DNA of 50,135 nt from Bdellovibrionales bacterium (GTDB lineage Bacteria; Bdellovibrionota; Bdellovibrionia; Bdellovibrionales; UBA1609). The stretch covers positions 1 to 50,135 of the forward strand of contig JAKUPT010000001.1 in NCBI GenBank assembly GCA_022450595.1, in the 5' to 3' direction. Below are positions 1,654-9,724 of this stretch, piece by piece; the first letter of the stretch is position 1, and each line of letters begins with the position of its first letter. Under the pieces are notes generated by a model that saw only the letters and a list, made by a program, of their open reading frames with translations, was not told where the DNA came from and searched no databases. The position numbers were made by a program, and so were the translations under genes.

Positions 1654-1669
1654 AGGGACGGACACTTAT
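1654..1669 (+). repeat. Copy of the dispersed GGGACGGACAC motif
   Basis: Reads AGGGACGGACACTTAT in the gap between the flagellin promoter and the metalloprotease gene. It is a member of the family clustered around the Y1 transposase at 7288. Confidence 0.6.
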
Positions 1670-1691
1670 TTTACAGCACTTTGATCTGGTT

Positions 1692-1707
1692 GAGGGACGG
1701 AGACTTA
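1692..1707 (+). repeat. Second, variant copy of the dispersed motif
   Basis: Reads GAGGGACGGAGACTTA, 38 bases after the copy at 1654 and in the same orientation. It differs by C to G in the GGAC/GGAG position, as does the copy at 7071. Confidence 0.55.
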
Positions 1708-1786
1708 TCTATATATATGTATTTATCTCTTTAATTTTGAGTGGTAAAAAGAATTCATATATCGGATAAATTGATTGGGAGGCCCA

Positions 1787-2791
1787 ATGAACACAAATCT
1801 ACAAGAACTAGATGCGGTTTTAAAACAATTAAACTCTACGACGATGGGGCGCAGAGCTTTTTTAGCAAGTGTTCCATTGTTATTGGCAGCTTGCGCTTCG
1901 ACTGACAAAACAAGATATAGAGAAGGTGACAATACCGGCCAAGCCAGTGCTCTGACCGTGAATGAAGAAAAAAATATGACTGCAGAAGTTTTGCCTGAAA
2001 TGAGAAAAGACTATCCTGCTTTAAAAGATACTAGAATGCAGAGTTATATAAATCGTTTGGGCAATAAAATTGTTACGACTAACGGCCTGAATGGTAAGCC
2101 TTATAACTATTCATTTACGGTTGTAGATGTCCCTAACGTGAACGCCTTTGCCTTGCCGGCTGGAACTATTTTTGTCACAGCTCCTTTGATTGCAATGGCT
2201 GAAACTGAGGCTGAGCTTGCTGGAGTTGTGGGGCATGAAGTGGGTCATGTGGTGGCTAGACACTCCGCAGAGAGAATGTTTAAAGCCCAAAAGGAACAAA
2301 GTAAATCTTGGATGTATGCCTTAGGCGGAGGATTGATTGGCGGAGTCCTTGGCTATGGTATAGGTAAAATTGCATGTAAACCAAAAGACAAAGCTTGCCT
2401 TGAAAAGGCCGCCAAACTTGGTGCTGCCACGGGTGCCGGTGGAGGGTTGTTGATTCAAAAGTATTATTTTATGGCAAACTCTCGTGAAGATGAAATGGAA
2501 GCAGACCGTATTGGTTTTAAAACTGCATATCGCGCAGGATTTGATAAAGACTATGTGGGGGCCTTTTACAACAAACTGCTTGAGATGGAAAAAAGGCATA
2601 AAAAAGGTCAAAAGACAAAACTCTTAAGTTCTGTTCAAGATGCCATGAGCACACATCCTCCAAGCACAGAGCGGGTGGTGCAAATGAAGCAAATGTCATC
2701 ACAAGCTAAGGCCAGACCAAGGGCTATAGTGTCTTCTGAAGAATTTAAAACTATAAAAACGTTAGCACAAAGACACACTAAGAGTTCTTAA
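1787..2791 (+). CDS. M48-family zinc metalloprotease, lipoprotein
   Basis: Membrane-anchored metalloprotease of 334 residues, probably acting in periplasmic or outer-membrane protein quality control (inferred from BepA/LoiP-type relatives). The export signal GRRAFLASVPLLLAACAS has a twin arginine and a lipobox ending at Cys36. The zinc site is HEVGH (residues 150-154), and the third-ligand region SREDEMEADRIGF follows after a glycine-rich hydrophobic stretch. ATG 1787 is preferred because GGGAGG lies just before it; a TTG at 1775 in frame would put the ribosome site inside the gene. Its 3' end overlaps the opposing GTPase gene by 14 bases. Confidence 0.9.
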   Translation: MNTNLQELDAVLKQLNSTTMGRRAFLASVPLLLAACASTDKTRYREGDNTGQASALTVNEEKNMTAEVLPEMRKDYPALKDTRMQSYINRLGNKIVTTNGLNGKPYNYSFTVVDVPNVNAFALPAGTIFVTAPLIAMAETEAELAGVVGHEVGHVVARHSAERMFKAQKEQSKSWMYALGGGLIGGVLGYGIGKIACKPKDKACLEKAAKLGAATGAGGGLLIQKYYFMANSREDEMEADRIGFKTAYRAGFDKDYVGAFYNKLLEMEKRHKKGQKTKLLSSVQDAMSTHPPSTERVVQMKQMSSQAKARPRAIVSSEEFKTIKTLAQRHTKSS

Positions 2792-3680
2792 AGAGATTGA
2801 TTAAATCTTCTACGGATTTAATTTTTTCAGATTGTTTTAAAATATTTTGTTCAAGCTGAAGTTTCAAAAGTGCTCTGGCTTCGGCTTGAAGTCTTGGGGC
2901 TGTTTTATGGAGCTTTTCTAAATCCAGGGACTGTTTTCTTTGAGTGAGTTCTTCAGCAAGTTCTAAGGCTCCGTCCCCGGTTGTGGCCGTGGTTTTTAAA
3001 ATTTTACTTTTTTTTAGTTCAGGATTGTAGGCCAGGCCTAGCTCTAAAGAGGCTTTGAGCTCGTTGATAAAACCTTCAGCACCTGGGCGATCTGATTTAT
3101 TAACTATATATAGGTCTGATATTTCTAAAAGCCCAGCTTTCATGGCTTGGATGGAGTCGCCACTTTCTGGAACAAGAACTACTGCAATTTCATCGGCCAC
3201 ATGAACAATGTCTAGCTCGGATTGTCCCACACCAACGGTTTCAATAATCGTTATATCAAATCCGTAGTTGTCTAAAGCTCGAAGCATTAAGTAAGCGGAC
3301 GCGCACAAACCACCTAGACTTCCTCGGCTGCCTAATGAGCGGATAAATACACCCTTGTCTTGGTAGTGTTGTAAATACCGAATGCGATCACCCAGTATAG
3401 CGCCTTTACTAAAAGGACTACTTGGATCAATAGCAATTACAGCAACAGTAAGATTGTTCTTTCGAAACTCAGTAATAAGTTGATTGATAAGCGTGGATTT
3501 ACCAGCTCCAGGAGGGCCAGTAATTCCAATTCTATAACTATGATGTGGTGGGTGGCTTAAACTTTTATGAGTTAAAAGTTTGGGCCCATGTCGATCAAGC
3601 TGAGTTAAGAGTTGAGATAGGCCTGCAATTTCTTTGTTTTGAGTCTTTTTAATGAGTTTGCGTATTTTGTCATCCGACAC
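2778..3680 (-). CDS. meaB: MeaB/ArgK-type P-loop GTPase (methylmalonyl-CoA mutase chaperone family)
   Basis: G3E-family GTPase of 300 residues that in known cases protects and reloads the B12-dependent methylmalonyl-CoA mutase. The P-loop GPPGAGKS is at residues 55-62, then the family motifs AIDPSSPFSKGAILGDR, ETVGVGQSE (147-155) and the base-recognition motif NKSD (194-197). The start is the GTG at 3680, which has GGGAGG on the minus strand five bases upstream. No mutase gene lies in the window, so the client enzyme is not visible here. It converges on and overlaps the metalloprotease gene. Confidence 0.92.
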   Translation of the reverse strand: MSDDKIRKLIKKTQNKEIAGLSQLLTQLDRHGPKLLTHKSLSHPPHHSYRIGITGPPGAGKSTLINQLITEFRKNNLTVAVIAIDPSSPFSKGAILGDRIRYLQHYQDKGVFIRSLGSRGSLGGLCASAYLMLRALDNYGFDITIIETVGVGQSELDIVHVADEIAVVLVPESGDSIQAMKAGLLEISDLYIVNKSDRPGAEGFINELKASLELGLAYNPELKKSKILKTTATTGDGALELAEELTQRKQSLDLEKLHKTAPRLQAEARALLKLQLEQNILKQSEKIKSVEDLINLFKNS

Positions 3681-3829
3681 AGGGCCTCCCTTTTTGGGTA
3701 ACTGTTTGAAAATAATAAGGTTTTTAGGAATTTAAGTCACGTTGTCATAATTTTAGACAGGTGATGTTATAGGCTTGAAAAGTCTCTTAAATAAACTCAG
3801 TAAAATCAATAAGTTACAAGGTGGCATGC

Positions 3830-3845
3830 TGGCACAATATTCGCC
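3830..3845 (+). promoter_or_regulatory. Candidate sigma-54 promoter of the gene at 3870
   Basis: TGGCAC-AATAT-TCGCC keeps the GG and GC dinucleotides of a -24/-12 element at the proper spacing, with C for T in the -12 box. The layout down to the ATG (TTATAGTGTTGTAGGGAGAG) closely parallels the better match at 12326, including the distance to the ribosome site. Confidence 0.5.
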
Positions 3846-3869
3846 TTATAGTGTTGTAGGGAGAGTGTT

Positions 3870-5045
3870 ATGACAAAGCAAAAATGGATATTACTAACAT
3901 TATGTATAGGCATATTATGGGGGACGGACACCTTATTTCAAAGCCTATGGAGTGAGAACACATCAAATGTGACTCAATCAGAAGACAACAAACTTGAGTT
4001 TGAAAAAACTAACTTCAATAAAGTTAAACCTAAAAAGCAGTTTACTGGGAAAACTCAATTGCAGCAAAAGCCTGTAAAAGTGGTCTCTACAGATAAGGGG
4101 TTGAAAGCTTTAGAAGCCGTGAAGTCTCCGTCACCAAAAAAGAAGGGTGATAACCTAGAGGACTTGGCTAAAAAGTATGATAAAAAGTTAGCTCAGAAAA
4201 AGAAAGTGCCTGAAAAGAAGGCTGCAGAAGATAATAGCGATGAGAAAACTAACACTAATAATAATAGAAACTCGTATGCTAATTCGAATAATAGATCCAA
4301 TAATGATTTTTTTACGAATGATGAAAGAACATCATCAGCAAACACTGGGGAGTTTTCTGTCATCACTCCTAATGCTAAAGAAAACCAAGCAAATAACTTA
4401 GGTGGTGGTGCAGCTTTTACTGCCAATAGTGATATGACAATTCGTCAGTGGTCACAGGCTTTAACAAACAACCCTTCTGATTCAGAGATCAATGACTTTA
4501 TCACTGCCATCAGACAAGGAAATGTAGATCAAGATGAAGCTTATCAATTAGTAGAAACTCTACTGCGATCTGAATCAGAAGATGATCATTCAAACGCAAT
4601 TAAAGTTGTAATGGCCATCAAGTCTCCAAAAAGCTTTATACTACTTACTGATGTTGTATCTGGTGGGTTTTCAGAGTCCGTTAACTCTGCAGCTTATAGT
4701 GGACTACTTAATTATAGATCATACGATGATTTAGCTATAATTGAGGAAGTATTAAAAAAAGAGAACTTATCTTTAGGAACTATTTACTTTAGTGCAGACA
4801 CCATATTACAACTTTCACAACAAACAGTTCCCACTTATGGTGATGAAGAGCAAAGAACAGTGACTATGTTAGATGCCTATATGGATAGATTTTTATTATT
4901 ATCAGACCTATTAAAAGAGACTTCAGTAGATGTAGCTGATGAAAGAGTTCTGGGTCAGGTAAACCAGACAGTAGCCTTTATTGGTGGGCCGGAAGCGGTT
5001 GCTGATGGTTCTGTTGCAAAGCCTAACTACAGGGCTTTGTTTTAG
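3870..5045 (+). CDS. Unknown membrane-anchored protein with basic linker and helical C-terminal domain
   Basis: A 391-residue protein of no recognised family. Residues about 5-20 form a single hydrophobic segment (signal anchor or uncleaved signal). Residues 40-180 are low-complexity, rich in Lys, Asn and Ser, and probably unstructured. From about residue 185 to the end lies a helical region with regular short helices (for example SDSEINDFITAIRQGNVDQ), reminiscent of armadillo/HEAT folds, so a protein-binding role is possible. Translation starts at ATG 3870 behind AGGGAGA. A sigma-54-like promoter and the adjacent flagellin suggest flagellar-regulon membership; this is inference. Codons 17-23 coincide with a copy of the dispersed GGGGACGGACACC motif. 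Confidence 0.8.
   Translation: MTKQKWILLTLCIGILWGTDTLFQSLWSENTSNVTQSEDNKLEFEKTNFNKVKPKKQFTGKTQLQQKPVKVVSTDKGLKALEAVKSPSPKKKGDNLEDLAKKYDKKLAQKKKVPEKKAAEDNSDEKTNTNNNRNSYANSNNRSNNDFFTNDERTSSANTGEFSVITPNAKENQANNLGGGAAFTANSDMTIRQWSQALTNNPSDSEINDFITAIRQGNVDQDEAYQLVETLLRSESEDDHSNAIKVVMAIKSPKSFILLTDVVSGGFSESVNSAAYSGLLNYRSYDDLAIIEEVLKKENLSLGTIYFSADTILQLSQQTVPTYGDEEQRTVTMLDAYMDRFLLLSDLLKETSVDVADERVLGQVNQTVAFIGGPEAVADGSVAKPNYRALF
3920..3938 (+). repeat. Dispersed motif copy inside a coding sequence
   Basis: GGGGACGGACACCTTATTT, the fullest copy of the motif in the window. It is read in frame as residues W17-G-T-D-T-L-F23, just at the outer end of the hydrophobic segment of the protein at 3870. Confidence 0.6.
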
Positions 5046-5081
5046 TCGAGTCTTATAGACTGTTCTTAGTCTGTAATTTAT

Positions 5082-5115
5082 TAGTCTAGCAGTCCTGCTA
5101 GACTAGATGTCTTTT
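5082..5115 (+). terminator. Hairpin terminator after the 3870 gene
   Basis: TAGTCTAGCAG (5082-5092) is perfectly complementary to CTGCTAGACTA (5095-5105), giving at least a 10-bp stem. GATGTC and then five T follow, so it is a plausible though slightly displaced Rho-independent terminator. A smaller stem, AGACT with AGTCT, lies just before it at about 5057-5072. Confidence 0.55.
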
Positions 5116-5242
5116 TAATTCCTCTATTTTATAAAGTATCAAAGGCTAGCCCAGAGCCATTTTTTCCTATCAAAACGTATGTATTTACAGGTTAAAGGTC
5201 CAGAAAACACAAGACCATTGTCGCGAAAACCACGACTTGACT

Positions 5243-5268
5243 TAAGGCTTCTCTAGACTCGCCGAATG
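5243..5268 (+). promoter_or_regulatory. Sigma-28-type promoter of the 5454 flagellin
   Basis: TAAGGCTT-N10-GCCGAATG. The -10 element matches the FliA consensus at GCCGA. Transcription would start near 5275, leaving a leader of roughly 180 bases. Confidence 0.7.
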
Positions 5269-5453
5269 AGTGGGTGTCTGAAGCAAAAATGCTAGACGAG
5301 ACTTCCAGCTAAGAGGTTAGGGTAGGAGGTTTAAGGTCTAGTCTTAAGGCTTTAGTCAGAAGAAAAAACTAAAACAAAAATCGAGCTTTTAGTTAGAGTT
5401 TATAGGTTAGGACTCTGGCTAAATAAAAGGCTCAAAACAAAAGGGGAACTAAT
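5269..5453 (+). other. Long untranslated leader of the 5454 flagellin
   Basis: No ORF with a ribosome site is visible between the promoter and the ATG. The stretch is purine-rich near the gene and holds several CTAG-containing short repeats (GCTAGAC, GTCTAG) that continue from the upstream hairpin. The ribosome site is AAAGGGG before 5454. The length resembles that of the leader of the sister flagellin (about 180 bases). Confidence 0.45.
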
Positions 5454-6287
5454 ATGTCATTAACAATATCAACAAACGTAGCTGCGATTTCTGCTCAAAA
5501 AACTATGTCTAGCACTCAGCGTGATTTAAATAAAAGTTACGCGCAGTTAGCATCCGGATCTCGAATCACGAAAGCTGCTGATGATGCTGCTGGTTTATCA
5601 ATCAGTGAAAAATTAAAATCAAACATTAGAGGTTATGAGCAAGCAAAAAGAAACGCTAACGATGGTATTTCAATGGTACAAGTGGCTGAGGGTTCACTTG
5701 GTGAAGTATCAAACATTCTGACTCGTATGAGAGAGCTAGGTGTACAAGCCGCTTCTGATACAGTTGGATCAAAAGAAAGACAATTTATAGATAAAGAAGT
5801 TCAACAGCTTAAAAATGAAATTGAACGTATTGCACAAAGTTCTAGATATGGTGATACAAAACTATTAGATGGAACAGGTGGAGATTATTCATTCCAAGTT
5901 GATGTTAATAACAACGACTTCGTAGATAGAATTAGCTTTGATGCCAGTGAGCAAGAAGTAACTCTATCTGCACTAGGAATTGATGGCTTTGATTTCTCTT
6001 CAAAAGATGGAGCTCGTGAAGCTCTAGAAACATTAGAAGGAGCACAAACACAAGTAAACGGACACAGAGCAACATTGGGTGCGTTACAAAACAGACTTGT
6101 GTCAACAACAGAAAACTTAAGTGTAGCAATTGAGAACTTTTCAGCTGCAAACTCTCGTGTGAGAGATACAGATGTAGCTCAAGCAAGTGCAGATTTGGCT
6201 AAAAACAACATTCTTATGAATGCATCGGTAGGAGTTTTAGCCTCAGCCAACCAAGCTCCTGGTCAAGCACTTAGACTGATTGGATAA
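5454..6287 (+). CDS. Flagellin
   Basis: Filament protein of 277 residues with an intact N-terminal domain (MSLTISTNVAAISAQKTMSS, then LASGSRITKAADDAAGLSIS) and C-terminal domain (SRVRDTDVAQASADLAKNN ... LRLIG). It lacks a surface-exposed variable domain. By eye it is about 85% identical to the flagellin at 8361, while synonymous codons differ widely, so the duplication is not recent. A sigma-28-type promoter precedes it and a strong terminator follows. The many Ser/Thr residues in the central part are possible targets for the glycosyltransferases encoded at 13954 and 15300 (inferred). Confidence 0.97.
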   Translation: MSLTISTNVAAISAQKTMSSTQRDLNKSYAQLASGSRITKAADDAAGLSISEKLKSNIRGYEQAKRNANDGISMVQVAEGSLGEVSNILTRMRELGVQAASDTVGSKERQFIDKEVQQLKNEIERIAQSSRYGDTKLLDGTGGDYSFQVDVNNNDFVDRISFDASEQEVTLSALGIDGFDFSSKDGAREALETLEGAQTQVNGHRATLGALQNRLVSTTENLSVAIENFSAANSRVRDTDVAQASADLAKNNILMNASVGVLASANQAPGQALRLIG

Positions 6288-6311
6288 TTTGTTAACGTTT
6301 AGTTAACCCTT

Positions 6312-6324
6312 GGTACCTAACCTA
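6312..6324 (+). repeat. 13-bp repeat shared by the 3' flanks of both flagellins (copy 1)
   Basis: GGTACCTAACCTA occurs here, 24 bases after the flagellin stop, and again at 9233-9245 after the second flagellin. In both places a stable hairpin follows, which shows that the duplication included the 3' flank. Confidence 0.65.
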
Positions 6325-6338
6325 TACGCAAAATACCA

Positions 6339-6368
6339 CCCCCTAAGTTTTTTCTTAGGGGGTTTTTT
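6339..6368 (+). terminator. Rho-independent terminator of the 5454 flagellin
   Basis: CCCCCTAAG (6339-6347) pairs perfectly with CTTAGGGGG (6354-6362), followed by six T (6363-6368). The T run touches the stop codon of the opposing gene at 6367. Confidence 0.9.
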
Positions 6369-6930
6369 ATATTTGTCTTTTTTCAAACTTTAAGGACTTA
6401 TCTGAGCAATGAAGTAAATATTCAGTGATATTATCTTCATTATCATCAATATAAATACTTGTACCTGCAGAGTAATGTAAAGACTTATAAAAGCAGCCGG
6501 TTCTTTTTTCTATTAGAGCTTCTAAGTCTTCATTCATTAGAAGGGTCAGATTTTGGTATATTCCCACTCTAAGGCCGTCACTAAAACACATGATGTCTTC
6601 GATATCTCCATATTGTTCAAAATGTTTCAAGTTAAATGAGCTGTGTTCAGGTTTGACAGATTCATAAAGATCTAATTGTTCCCCACTGGGAAGTGTACAT
6701 CTATTTTTATTTTCAGTTGGCATGTAAGTTAGAGTACGTCCAATCAGATTGAAGCGATTATTTATGCATTGAATACTTTTAATACCGGAGTGTTCTCCAA
6801 AAACATTATCAATGTTTATAACGTCACTCTTAAGTATCCGCCCCTCAGGGAACCATTGCCCATTGTAGTTACAATCAGCGAAAAGTGGTTGAGATATTAA
6901 AAGTATTAATGTCATTAAATATAAGTTCAT
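6367..6930 (-). CDS. Secreted protein with six cysteines, unknown family
   Basis: A 187-residue exported protein. The signal peptide MNLYLMTLILLISQPLFA is typical and cleavage would fall before Asp19. The mature part has six cysteines (20, 55, 78, 115, 146, 175), an even number consistent with three disulfides in the periplasm or outside. ATG 6930 is chosen because GGGAGG lies seven bases upstream on the minus strand and the signal peptide starts there; a longer frame from 6969 would bury the signal. It sits between two flagellin paralogues next to the Y1 transposase, in AT-rich DNA, which suggests acquired material. No family was recognised. Confidence 0.75.
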   Translation of the reverse strand: MNLYLMTLILLISQPLFADCNYNGQWFPEGRILKSDVINIDNVFGEHSGIKSIQCINNRFNLIGRTLTYMPTENKNRCTLPSGEQLDLYESVKPEHSSFNLKHFEQYGDIEDIMCFSDGLRVGIYQNLTLLMNEDLEALIEKRTGCFYKSLHYSAGTSIYIDDNEDNITEYLLHCSDKSLKFEKRQI

Positions 6931-7287
6931 TTGTTTACCTCCCATATTAGGTAAAGCCATTATTGACATAAAAATAAGTTTCTGGGGGTATTAGATGTAA
7001 AAAATGTAAATATTTTTATTAAAAAAAATAAAAGTTATATACTATTTTCAAAAATAGAACCTGTTTTAAAAGGGACGGAGCTTTTCTTAAATTAAATTAT
7101 AGACTTATCTAAACTGAGCTAAGTTTTCCTGTTTTTTTTTATTAAATTTAATGAATTCAAAATAAGAGACGAAAAATTGATTAAAAAATTTAATTTTACA
7201 CTTTTAATAAAGAATATTTAAATTTATATCAATTTTTAGACGCAGTAGTGCCTTAAAATTTAAAAAAATTATTTTTATTTTAAATAT
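6931..7287. other. AT-rich gap with one dispersed-motif copy
   Basis: About 357 bases with long A and T runs. The 6930 gene must be promoted from its left part (minus strand). The only distinctive item is the motif copy at 7071-7085. No terminator with a clear stem and no small ORF with a ribosome site was found. Confidence 0.5.
7071..7085 (+). repeat. Dispersed motif copy close to the Y1 transposase gene
   Basis: AGGGACGGAGCTTTT, about 200 bases beyond the stop of the transposase at 7288. It has the GGAG variant seen also at 1692. Confidence 0.55.
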
Positions 7288-8034
7288 TTATGAACTATTG
7301 AGTTTGTTTTTAAGTAGGATATTTTTAATCATTTTTTTTCTTTTATGTTTCCATAAAGTCGATCCGATAAAGTCATATGTCTCAAAAAAAGTATGGTCAT
7401 TATTATTCTCATTTAAATACTGACAGAACATTTCTCGATAAATTCGTTGGCATTCTCGGAGAGTTTTTCCTAACTTCAAATACCAATCAGGATAAGTAAG
7501 ATTTTTAGTCCACTTATTTTTTACGCCATACGCATAAAACATATAACTTGAATATTTATGATACTTTAATTGTTTGAGCGTTAGCTTTCCGGCTCGAACA
7601 GGATTGGCCTCTATATACATATGAACTCTTATTAAAGAGTCGTCATTTTCAATATAAGGAGTTTTAGGCCTTTCATTAGCCACCTTACCAGATCTATTTG
7701 ATATTTTATTAAATTGATATCCAAACTTTGAGTGAGATATACGCATATAATTAGAAAGATTCTCAGAGCTGTCTTTATAAAATAGACCCATATGAGCGTG
7801 ATTATCCATAATAGAGTAGGCATTTATTGATACTTTTTTATTAATTTTTTTATGTTGTAAGGCTTCAACAGAGCAATTCAGGTATAAATCTTTAAATTTA
7901 TCATTATCCAATAAAAAATCATTGTTATGGCACTTCCAATATTTATGAACACTGCCAGATTTATCCATTAATTGTAAACGTCTTGGTATTCTCATGAACA
8001 TATATATGTGCAAAGTATGTTCATCATCTATCAC
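7288..8034 (-). CDS. REP-associated-type Y1 (IS200-like HUH) transposase
   Basis: Single-strand DNA endonuclease of the Y1/RAYT family, 248 residues from the GTG at 8034. The metal-binding HUH motif is N78-H-A-H81 in SIMDNHAHMGLFY. The family-typical segment MYIEANPVRAGKL follows at about 139-151, and residues 12-50 align with the usual N-terminus (MFMRIPRRLQLM ... NNDFLLDNDKF). A catalytic tyrosine is expected in the helix around SKFGYQFN; Y106 is the candidate, but the usual position cannot be assigned surely. No ribosome site precedes the GTG, and ATG 8001 or 7995 may be the real start. The gene looks intact, has no IS ends of its own, and is very AT-rich. Such enzymes act on dispersed REP sequences, here probably the GGGACGGACAC family. 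Confidence 0.85.
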   Translation of the reverse strand: MIDDEHTLHIYMFMRIPRRLQLMDKSGSVHKYWKCHNNDFLLDNDKFKDLYLNCSVEALQHKKINKKVSINAYSIMDNHAHMGLFYKDSSENLSNYMRISHSKFGYQFNKISNRSGKVANERPKTPYIENDDSLIRVHMYIEANPVRAGKLTLKQLKYHKYSSYMFYAYGVKNKWTKNLTYPDWYLKLGKTLRECQRIYREMFCQYLNENNNDHTFFETYDFIGSTLWKHKRKKMIKNILLKNKLNSS

Positions 8035-8122
8035 TAGTTTAATTTTTAAATGACATTCTTATTTCGAAAGTAGATTCGAATATTGTTTTTATAAAACCAA
8101 AGTCTAGTTTTGCTAGATGATG

Positions 8123-8139
8123 GTCTAGTTTCACTAGAC
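8123..8139 (+). promoter_or_regulatory. CTAG-rich inverted repeat next to the second flagellin promoter
   Basis: GTCTAGT (8123-8129) is the perfect complement of ACTAGAC (8133-8139), and it ends six bases before the -35 element at 8145. The surrounding 50 bases hold five CTAG tetranucleotides. It could be an operator, or the terminator-like counterpart of the CTAG hairpin at 5082. Confidence 0.4.
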
Positions 8140-8144
8140 TAGAC

Positions 8145-8171
8145 TAAAGAACACCCAGACCTGGCCGAAAG
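8145..8171 (+). promoter_or_regulatory. Sigma-28-type promoter of the 8361 flagellin
   Basis: TAAAGAAC-N11-GCCGAAAG matches the FliA consensus in the first five -35 bases, in the spacer length and in GCCGA. The predicted start near 8178 leaves a leader of about 180 bases. Confidence 0.8.
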
Positions 8172-8360
8172 GGTTAATGTAGCAAGGATGAAAGTCTGGG
8201 TTTGTTAAGAGTGACTGCTTAATTTATCTATTAAAAGGACTTAAGTCTGAACTACACCAACATGTTCAACCGCACGAAAGTGCTGTTTGGTGGGGGATTA
8301 GGTAGGTGTCCGTCCCCCACTAAACTTCAAGCATCTAGTGCACAAATTAAGGAGAGAGAT
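8172..8360 (+). other. Structured leader of the 8361 flagellin, including a motif-derived hairpin
   Basis: The leader contains a GCAC-GAAA-GTGC tetraloop hairpin (8272-8283) and a perfect 8-bp stem, GTGGGGGA (8290-8297) with TCCCCCAC (8313-8320). The right arm of the second stem belongs to an inverted copy of the dispersed motif at 8305-8319. The ribosome site GGAGAGAG (8351-8358) lies outside both hairpins. Confidence 0.5.
8305..8319 (-). repeat. Inverted copy of the dispersed motif in the flagellin leader
   Basis: Reads GGTGTCCGTCCCCCA on the plus strand, that is TGGGGGACGGACACC on the minus strand, identical in its core to the copy at 3920. Confidence 0.65.
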
Positions 8361-9194
8361 ATGTCTCTTACGATTTCTACAAACGTTGCATCGATAAGTG
8401 CACAAAAAACAATGTCACAAACACAAAGAAGCCTGAATAAAAGTTATTCTCAATTATCATCAGGTTCACGAATTACAAAAGCCGCAGATGACGCTGCTGG
8501 TTTGTCTATAAGTGAAAACTTAAAGTCTACAATTCGTGGTTATGAACAAGCCAAACGAAACGCGAACGACGGTATTTCAATGGTTCAAGTAGCAGAAGGT
8601 GGCTTAAGTGAAGTAAGTAATATTTTAACACGCTTAAGAGAACTTGGTGTTCAAGCCTCTTCTGATACAGTCGGACAAAAAGAGCGTGAATTTATTGATA
8701 AAGAAGTTCAACAAATGAAAAACGAAATCCAAAGGATTGCAGAAAGCTCTCGCTTTGGTAATACAAAACTATTAGATGGAAGTGGTGAAACTTTTGATTT
8801 CCAAGTAGATATTAATAACGATGATTTTGTTGATAGAATCAGTTTTGATGCCAGTGCACAAGACGTAACTCTATCAGCTCTTGAAATTGAAGGTTTTGAC
8901 TTTTCATCAAAAGATGGTGCTCGCGAAGCCTTAGAAACTTTAGAAGATGCGCAAACTGAGGTGAATGGTCACAGAGCAACACTTGGTGCTTTACAAAATA
9001 GATTGATTTCTACGACTGAAAACTTGAGTGTTGCTGTAGAAAACTTTTCATCTGCAAACTCTCGTATTAGAGATACGGATGTAGCTGCCGCAAGTGCTGA
9101 TCTTGCTAAGAACAACATTCTTATGAATGCCTCTGTAGGAGTATTAGCACAAGCCAACCAACAGCCTCAATCAGCCCTTAGATTAATTGGTTAA
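8361..9194 (+). CDS. Flagellin
   Basis: Filament protein of 277 residues, the close paralogue of the flagellin at 5454 (same length, same N-terminal MSLTISTNVASISAQKTMS, same C-terminal LRLIG end, conserved core KAADDAAGLSISENLKS). The frame is open back to 8262, but the ATG at 8361 follows GGAGAGAG directly and aligns with the start of the sister protein, so the extra upstream residues are leader. A canonical sigma-28-type promoter stands at 8145. Having two near-identical filament proteins and one divergent one suggests an ordered, multi-flagellin filament as in sheathed-flagellum predators (inferred). Confidence 0.97.
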   Translation: MSLTISTNVASISAQKTMSQTQRSLNKSYSQLSSGSRITKAADDAAGLSISENLKSTIRGYEQAKRNANDGISMVQVAEGGLSEVSNILTRLRELGVQASSDTVGQKEREFIDKEVQQMKNEIQRIAESSRFGNTKLLDGSGETFDFQVDINNDDFVDRISFDASAQDVTLSALEIEGFDFSSKDGAREALETLEDAQTEVNGHRATLGALQNRLISTTENLSVAVENFSSANSRIRDTDVAAASADLAKNNILMNASVGVLAQANQQPQSALRLIG

Positions 9195-9232
9195 TTTTTT
9201 AAAAAAGGATTGGGTGTTCTCCTATCCAGTCC

Positions 9233-9269
9233 GGTACCTAACCTACCCTTGGAGAGTTTTCTCCAAGGG
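9233..9269 (+). terminator. 13-bp flank repeat (copy 2) followed by a hairpin
   Basis: GGTACCTAACCTA (9233-9245) repeats the sequence at 6312. It abuts a perfect 9-bp stem, CCCTTGGAG (9246-9254) with CTCCAAGGG (9261-9269). Unlike the hairpin after the first flagellin there is no T run, so termination here would be weak and some readthrough into flaG is possible. Confidence 0.5.
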
Positions 9270-9300
9270 GTACTATGGTTAGTTCTAAAGTCCTGATTTT

Positions 9301-9327
9301 TAAGTTTTCTTTTCAATTCGCCGAATA
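9301..9327 (+). promoter_or_regulatory. Sigma-28-type promoter immediately before flaG
   Basis: TAAGTTTT-N11-GCCGAATA, one of the best FliA matches in the window. The -10 element ends only seven bases before the ATG at 9335, so a transcript started here would have almost no leader. Confidence 0.75.
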
Positions 9328-9334
9328 ACTAAAC

Positions 9335-9706
9335 ATGAATATAAAAACTTTCTCAACTCCAATAAGCTCAACTCAAAAAACCACTGAGTCTGACAAAATA
9401 AAAGATCTAAAAACTCAAGCTAGTGCAGATCGTGATGGGGACGGACGCCGTGAACAACAAGAGGAGTCTCCACAAAAAGAGAGTTTTTCAGAGGAAGAGC
9501 TAGAAGAGTTAGTTAAAAAAATAAAAAAAACACCCGGGTTCGATCAACACAGTCTAACTGTAAAAGTAAATTCGGATACCGTAATGCCAGTTATTTATGT
9601 CGAAGATGCTGACGGGAATGTCATTCACAGGATGACAGCCAAAGATGCTTGGTCTATGGAGCAAAAAAGAGATAGCACCGGAAAGCTTTTAAACAAATCG
9701 GCGTAA
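9335..9706 (+). CDS. flaG: FlaG-family flagellar protein with an EF-hand-like loop
   Basis: A 123-residue FlaG-like protein, a family that affects filament length and usually lies between flagellin and fliD, as here. The C-terminal half (SLTVKVNSDTVMPVIYVED, then GNVIHRMTAKDAW) fits the FlaG fold; the N-terminus is charged and probably flexible. Residues 32-43 (DRDGDGRREQQE) have acidic residues at positions 1, 3, 5, 9 and 12 and Gly at 6, the pattern of a calcium-binding EF-hand loop, although the usual hydrophobic residue at position 8 is Arg. There is no ribosome site before ATG 9335, and the sigma-28-like promoter places the transcript start almost at the ATG. Confidence 0.8.
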   Translation: MNIKTFSTPISSTQKTTESDKIKDLKTQASADRDGDGRREQQEESPQKESFSEEELEELVKKIKKTPGFDQHSLTVKVNSDTVMPVIYVEDADGNVIHRMTAKDAWSMEQKRDSTGKLLNKSA

Positions 9707-9710
9707 ATAA

Positions 9711-9724
9711 AAGTGTCCGTCCCT
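9711..9724 (-). repeat. Inverted copy of the dispersed motif after flaG
   Basis: AAGTGTCCGTCCCT on the plus strand, that is AGGGACGGACACTT on the minus strand, starting four bases after the flaG stop. Confidence 0.6.

Follow-up and report, generated by a model that had tools for sequence, protein, structure and literature searches.

A short terminal word and its local satellites around a divergent Y1/HuH transposase gene of a Bdellovibrionales bacterium

Introduction

TIRtrons (TIRYT) are described as Y1 transposase genes flanked by inverted terminal repeats (TIRs) that are unrelated to GTAG-tagged REPs. Many TIRs share the sequence GGGGWSAS and form modest repeat families, with single, dimeric or grouped members, and the text of the source also presents TIRs without this core (Di Nocera, De Gregorio and Rocco, 2013, PMC3733652). 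The GGGGWSAS core is therefore not strictly defining. Passages of a later study tentatively equate TIRYT with TnpA-Y1 subclass 2.1 (Bertels group 1), which they describe as REP-free, no REP-like sequences having been found near its genes; there the guide loop is also reported to contact GTAG in E. coli TnpA-REP (Quentin et al., 2018, PMC6006769).

The stretch of DNA analysed here (the window) comprises 50,135 nucleotides from a Bdellovibrionales bacterium, whose genome (G000) spans 3.06 Mb in 156 contigs. A first-pass annotation had proposed that a short motif clustered around a Y1 (RAYT-type) transposase gene belongs to that enzyme, possibly as an atypical REP substrate. A local excess of the motif, together with control-level counts in relatives lacking a close homologue, bears out the first part. 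The second is replaced by another assignment, as the motif is a bare word with neither a general hairpin nor a GTAG tag, corresponding instead to the terminal word of a TIRtron accompanied by satellites.

Comparison with described systems

As in a TIRtron, inverted words flank the window gene, at 7072 (+) and 8306 (−). The window word GGGACGGA nevertheless has G for A inside GGGGWSAS, the inverted ends measure only 8–11 nt, and published TIRs form repeat families without a gene-centred cloud being described in the text (PMC3733652). The same G for A sets GGGACGGAC apart from the core, whereas words of distant homologues, GGGGTCAG and GGGGACAG, conform to it. Shared with subclass 2.1, as characterised in the text of PMC6006769, are a length of ~238 aa, a C-terminal extension, the NHxH and YIExNP motifs and occurrence in delta/epsilon/beta lineages; the class 2 signature Y---NP appears in the window enzyme as YIEANP. 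Differences lie in the window loop VANERPKT, which lacks the conserved W[EQ] or FQ, and in the presence of a word family here, compared with the absence of REP-like sequences stated in that text (PMC6006769). The enzyme of the window is a diverged relative whose word varies on the published core.

With IS200/IS605 elements (IS608, ISDra2) the locus has in common a HuH/Y1 single-strand transposase and, in the related genome G007, a small hairpin after the left word. In contrast to those elements, YIEANP replaces Y---Q, inverted words stand at both ends, a high-identity multicopy IS is absent, and tnpB does not lie beside the window gene. A literature text search for the motif returned primer sequences and unrelated matches only, and one for GGGGTCAGA with transposase gave nothing relevant. 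Neither the text of PMC3733652 nor that of PMC6006769 describes a local word cloud, the scope of the comparison being literature outside subscription.

The transposase

The gene at 7288..8034 (−) encodes a Y1/HuH transposase of 248 aa if read from its GTG, homology beginning at the Met at 7995 and not at the GTG. Sequence motifs place the HuH motif at N65-H66-A-H68 and the catalytic tyrosine at Y127 in YIEANP; N65-H66-x-H68 and Y127 are invariant across 28 aligned sequences. The guide loop reads SGKVANERPKT, the usual form being SGTLWEGRYKS. Profile comparison matches the protein to 4er8 in the PDB (E. coli TnpA-REP) with an E value of 2e-7, and an AlphaFold model (pLDDT 89.9) finds its best PDB fold match in the same structure, IS200/ISDra2 structures also being among the top matches. 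HuH motif, tyrosine, profile and fold agree with the first-pass identification of a RAYT-like Y1/HuH transposase.

A second window-type transposase, 42% identical to the first, is encoded on contig C93 (L064:9966-10673); it reaches Pfam PF01797, which the window protein does not. Its gene directly follows fliA and precedes a sigma factor gene, in a flhB-flhA-flhF-fleN-fliA cluster, and both window-type transposase genes of G000 lie in flagellar regions.

The fold match to 4er8 and a match to NCBIfam REP_Tyr_transpos could point to a canonical REP-RAYT pair whose REP is exceptionally short. The two systems do share the HuH/Y1 fold, a single-copy-like gene and a cognate short repeat (PMC8266576). 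The REP_Tyr_transpos match, however, amounts to 43 bits, under the 80-bit cut-off (all distant homologues tested likewise fall below 80 bits), and the window enzyme fails several canonical features of REP-associated transposases. REPs are GTAG-tagged hairpins of 20–40 nt found genome-wide (PMC8266576), whereas the word here is bare, local and 8–11 nt long, with no GTAG/GTGG tag and no general stem; G000 moreover possesses, separately, a REPIN-like system of dispersed copies served by another Y1 gene. A canonical pair is consequently regarded as highly improbable. A CGTC-tagged REP (8–9 bp stem, 4–5 nt loop) was also considered and rejected: the reverse complement of the motif contains CGTC, but no such stem is present.

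The separate system centres on a third, different Y1 transposase gene (5433-6020; G000 C125:5272-6138, L065), flanked by inward GGTACGGACTACC words. GGTACGGACTACC has 36 exact copies dispersed genome-wide, compared with 4 for the reversed control at one mismatch; many are paired in inverted orientation at a distance of 34 or 53 bp, as in REPINs, and none lies in the window. Local and genome-wide modes can therefore be compared within one host.

Copies of the motif in the window and the genome

The reversed motif served as control for the genome-wide counts, and dinucleotide shuffles for the window. The exact motif GGGACGGACAC occurs 8 times in the genome and its reversed control not at all; four of the eight copies fall in the opening 10 kb of the window, no more than 6.5 kb from the transposase gene (clustering P = 2.8e-8). 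The tailed form GGGACGGASNNTT is found 13 times genome-wide (control 0), and 10 copies with up to two mismatches are present in the window, a number that no shuffle reached (2.65 ± 1.66). The motif is accordingly far more frequent than expected. With one mismatch allowed the genome-wide excess disappears (32 against 29 reversed), so the signal resides in the exact core. This loss is the one point in favour of chance or base composition, an explanation rendered practically negligible by the exact-core counts (8 vs 0, 13 vs 0), by P values of 3e-8 for clustering and 1e-13 against relatives, and by replication of the pattern in independent genomes. A wider pattern, GKGACGGASNY (72 vs 40 in the control, genome-wide), exposes a second cluster, around the second transposase gene on contig C93.

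Positions given by the first-pass annotation were confirmed to within 1–2 bases. A satellite GGGACGGACAC with the tail TTATTTT lies at 1655..1665 (+), intergenic between the genes for flagellin and an M48-type peptidase, followed 39 bp away, in the same orientation, by GGGACGGAGAC (one mismatch, tail TTATC) at 1694..1704 (+). Another GGGACGGACAC, with the tail CTTATTT, occupies 3921..3931 (+) inside the ORF 3870-5045, where it is read in frame as GTDTLF; orthologues of this ORF are too distant in their N-terminal part for an insertion comparison. A fourth satellite, GGGACGGACAC with the tail TTTTATTT at 9713..9723 (−), stands immediately beyond the flaG stop codon. Of the copies originally listed as good, that at 7072 has just the 8-nt core in common with the motif (GGGACGGAGCT, with 3 mismatches). 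The supposedly common tail, in CTTATT-like form, is found at 1655, 1694, 3921 and 9713 (as CTTTTATT), but not at 7072 or 8306.

A weaker satellite, GGGACGGACGC (one mismatch), at 9438..9448 (+) within flaG encodes DGDGRR and may have arisen by chance. Weak core copies missing from the first list occur at 2967 (−), 4124 (−) and 19350 (+); the first of these, GGGACGGAGCC at 2967..2977 (−), encodes TGDGA within a MeaB/ArgK-like GTPase gene and likely consists of ordinary codons. Separately, CTAGA-rich inverted repeats are located upstream of both flagellin genes, at 5060-5360 and 8100-8145 of the window.

Scarcity in relatives without the enzyme

Across a comparison set of 197 related genomes, GKGACGGASNYTT reaches 6.9 per Mb in the genome of the window. 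In the 190 that lack a close homologue its density is 0.77 per Mb, the level of the reversed control (0.85 per Mb); the abundance in relatives lacking the transposase on which the first-pass annotation had staked its proposal is therefore that of the control. The tailed form is about nine times denser here than in those 190 relatives (P 1e-13). Six genomes with a close homologue have only 1.4 per Mb, because they use other word variants. GGGGACGGAS occurs 52 times in G158 and 2, 2, 7 and 7 times in four genomes of its family, and the syntenic counterparts of the G158 region in two family mates, with the same neighbours and no enzyme, contain 0 words in 50.6 kb.

These counts also bear on the idea that the host uses the word for regulation, flagellar gene control for instance, or for chromosome architecture, with the enzyme as a bystander. 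Such a role would suit the position of both window-type genes in flagellar clusters and that of two words (1655, 1694 region) between divergent genes (1492-1775). It is nonetheless very improbable, given the lack of excess in relatives without a close homologue, the occurrence of G158 words around unrelated genes (kinase, galU, cytochrome), and word variants that follow the enzyme and not the neighbouring genes.

The word as terminus of an element

Two words face the window gene from either side. The left (5′ side) terminal word, GGGACGGACAC at 8306..8316 (−), lies 272 bp from the GTG start, in agreement with the position of the inward left word of homologues, and the right (3′ side) terminal word, GGGACGGAGCT at 7072..7082 (+), about 210 bp past the stop. 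Between these inward words, 7072..8316 (−) would constitute a TIRtron-type element of 1245 bp, a delimitation suggested by paralogue boundaries in G007 that coincide with the word. G007 harbours the transposase gene nine times, as copies or fragments, and BLAST alignments between the paralogous loci end at GTGACGGAG on the left side, often followed by a small hairpin, GTCCG..CGGAC; on the right, the inverted word encloses the alignable part, giving elements of 1.06–1.15 kb. From these boundaries the word can be understood as the 8–11 nt terminal word of a TIRtron (TIRYT). Two G007 loci, L121 and L122, hold decayed transposase gene fragments, which suggests a turnover of copies.

The arrangement extends to other loci. 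Words within 500 bp of the gene face inward in 35 of 36 cases from 20 related loci (L132 excluded), and family words form an inward pair around 49 of 75 genes and an outward pair around one, random anchors giving 1%; the 75 loci are genes with full flanks, partly chosen by mutual homology and not independent of one another. For the C93 transposase copy, a right-end word was not found within 650 bp. That the motif marks the ends of a small Y1/HuH element, its other copies being satellites, is well supported.

Word families and the guide loop

Overrepresented k-mers were counted de novo around homologues, without the motif as input, and yielded G[GT]GACGGAC in the window genome, GTGACGGAG in G007, GGGACGGAGC in G048, GGACGGAG in G158, GTGACAGAC in G017 and GACAGACTT in G166. 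Core variants were returned as well, namely GGGGACGGAG (33 in 20 kb of G158) and AAGACAGACTT. The comparison of motif use among genomes with related transposases, as envisaged at first pass, thereby shows the same core variants recurring around homologues. In more distant phyla, GGGGTCAGA or GGGGACAGA words appear in many of 80 separate loci, GGGGTCAGAC being an example of the word of distant homologues.

Enzymes whose loop lacks W go with ACGGA in 13 cases and ACAGA in 1, while those with a W/F loop go with TCAGA in 24, ACAGA in 7 and ACGGA in 1; most of the distant homologues keep W in the guide loop. A change of word from TCAGA/ACAGA to ACGGA thus seems to accompany a change of loop from LWEGRYKS to VANERPKT. 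As the covariation lies mostly between clades, few independent events stand behind this link, which is an association between clades and not proof.

Density and form of the satellites

With words defined by the termini alone, 54 loci contain 86 satellites within 10 kb, compared with 4 for the reversed word, at densities of 0.167/kb between 0.7 and 5 kb and 0.076/kb between 5 and 10 kb. Three or more satellites occur at 11 of the 54 loci and at none in the control. Satellites are not obligatory, since they are missing from 35 of the 54 loci despite the terminal words there. In the window subfamily the density falls from 0.49 per kb (1–2 kb) through 0.44 (2–4 kb) and 0.30 (4–7 kb) to 0.10 (7–10 kb), the reversed word giving 0.02–0.12; in G158, 29 of 52 genome-wide copies are within about 9 kb of one transposase gene.

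The satellites take the form of singles, tandem arrays, inverted pairs (L150, L180, L210, L212) and hairpin-enclosed words (L201). Tandem arrays of 9–12 nt words in other phyla are exemplified by AAAGGGGTC in L179:4204-4290 and TATCAGACAAAG in L196:7958-8062. Hairpins around words are weak in the window genome (p 0.02 and 0.08), absent in G158, G048 and G166, and clear only in Pseudoalteromonas L201; the pairing of inverted copies considered at first pass is not general among satellites. A uniform inward orientation of satellites, suspected from the window, was rejected, 31 of 50 being inward when pooled without L132, as at random.

Origin of the satellites

The satellites could be remnants of decayed or internally deleted whole elements, that is, solo ends or MITE- or REPIN-like derivatives. 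The decayed transposase fragments of G007 and the close inverted pairs in other phyla are of the kind that such decay would leave. Conservation, however, is confined to a unit of 10–12 nt, flanks beyond it being at background (~0 bits), the window holds no further transposase remnant, and length-neutral words within coding sequence leave no space for a lost element, which makes this origin improbable.

The coding words are best seen in G158. According to crude gene calls (longest ORFs), 24 of 32 words there lie inside predicted genes, read in frame as xSVP, APSP or LRP and mostly opposite the gene strand (20 vs 4). Several leave the length of the protein unchanged when compared with orthologues: GalU has KSVP for KSIP/KVVP (4–5 of 9 nt differing), SSVP lies in a CxxCH repeat, a further word is read as GGRS, and for an NSVP word the orthologue is one base off the word. 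Simple insertion does not explain such words. A multihaem cytochrome gene of the same genome (L132:13205-15481), on the other hand, carries seven words, three of them in one 24-aa in-frame insertion missing from both orthologues. Only 16 of 37 word-orthologue comparisons are ungapped, against 85% at random positions, so that words favour gapped sites; this control led to the strict view of an in-place origin for every word being abandoned. Taken together, the ungapped words, the insertion and the preference for gapped sites suggest a mixed origin.

The same ungapped words (KSVP in GalU, SSVP, GGRS, and NSVP at one base's distance) would be expected if the motif had the identity given above and its satellites arose by point mutation, with selection retaining them, for instance as decoys or targets from which element or host would benefit. 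This is rather unlikely. It fits poorly with the preference for indel-prone sites and with the insertion shared by three words, the tandem arrays and inverted pairs seen among other phyla would be hard to reach by this route, and no benefit is known.

Proposed mechanism and implications

The reading preferred here, with a probability of roughly 60%, is that of a TIRtron-type terminal word with satellites, which the enzyme would recognise and nick and which would build up locally. Most likely the guide-recognition loop of the enzyme reads the word in single-stranded form; a nick beside the word by Tyr127 would be followed by strand transfer, probably while the replication fork leaves this region single-stranded. 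Were the enzyme to act mainly near its own gene, cognate words would accumulate there singly, in close direct repeats and now and then in short insertions, and their piling up around the gene would find its cause in this proximity. Direct recognition of the word, its cleavage and the making of satellites by the enzyme are conjectural.

A further, distinctly unlikely proposal is that certain enzymes in this Y1/HuH branch themselves write their 8–11 nt word near their gene, partly by length-neutral replacement in place. If true, a cloud would grow around each enzyme gene, sometimes in frame as SVP, APSP or LRP, and sequence would spread in a manner unlike the transposition of hairpins or insertion sequences.

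The phenomenon itself is real and replicated, a variant of the TIRYT kind whose interest lies in its local cloud of words. It touches on two open questions, namely how REP-like repeats spread and what the substrates are of the large, supposedly repeat-free subclass 2.1. Since each enzyme now has a concrete candidate substrate word, its specificity of recognition becomes testable, as does the spread of words at the local scale.
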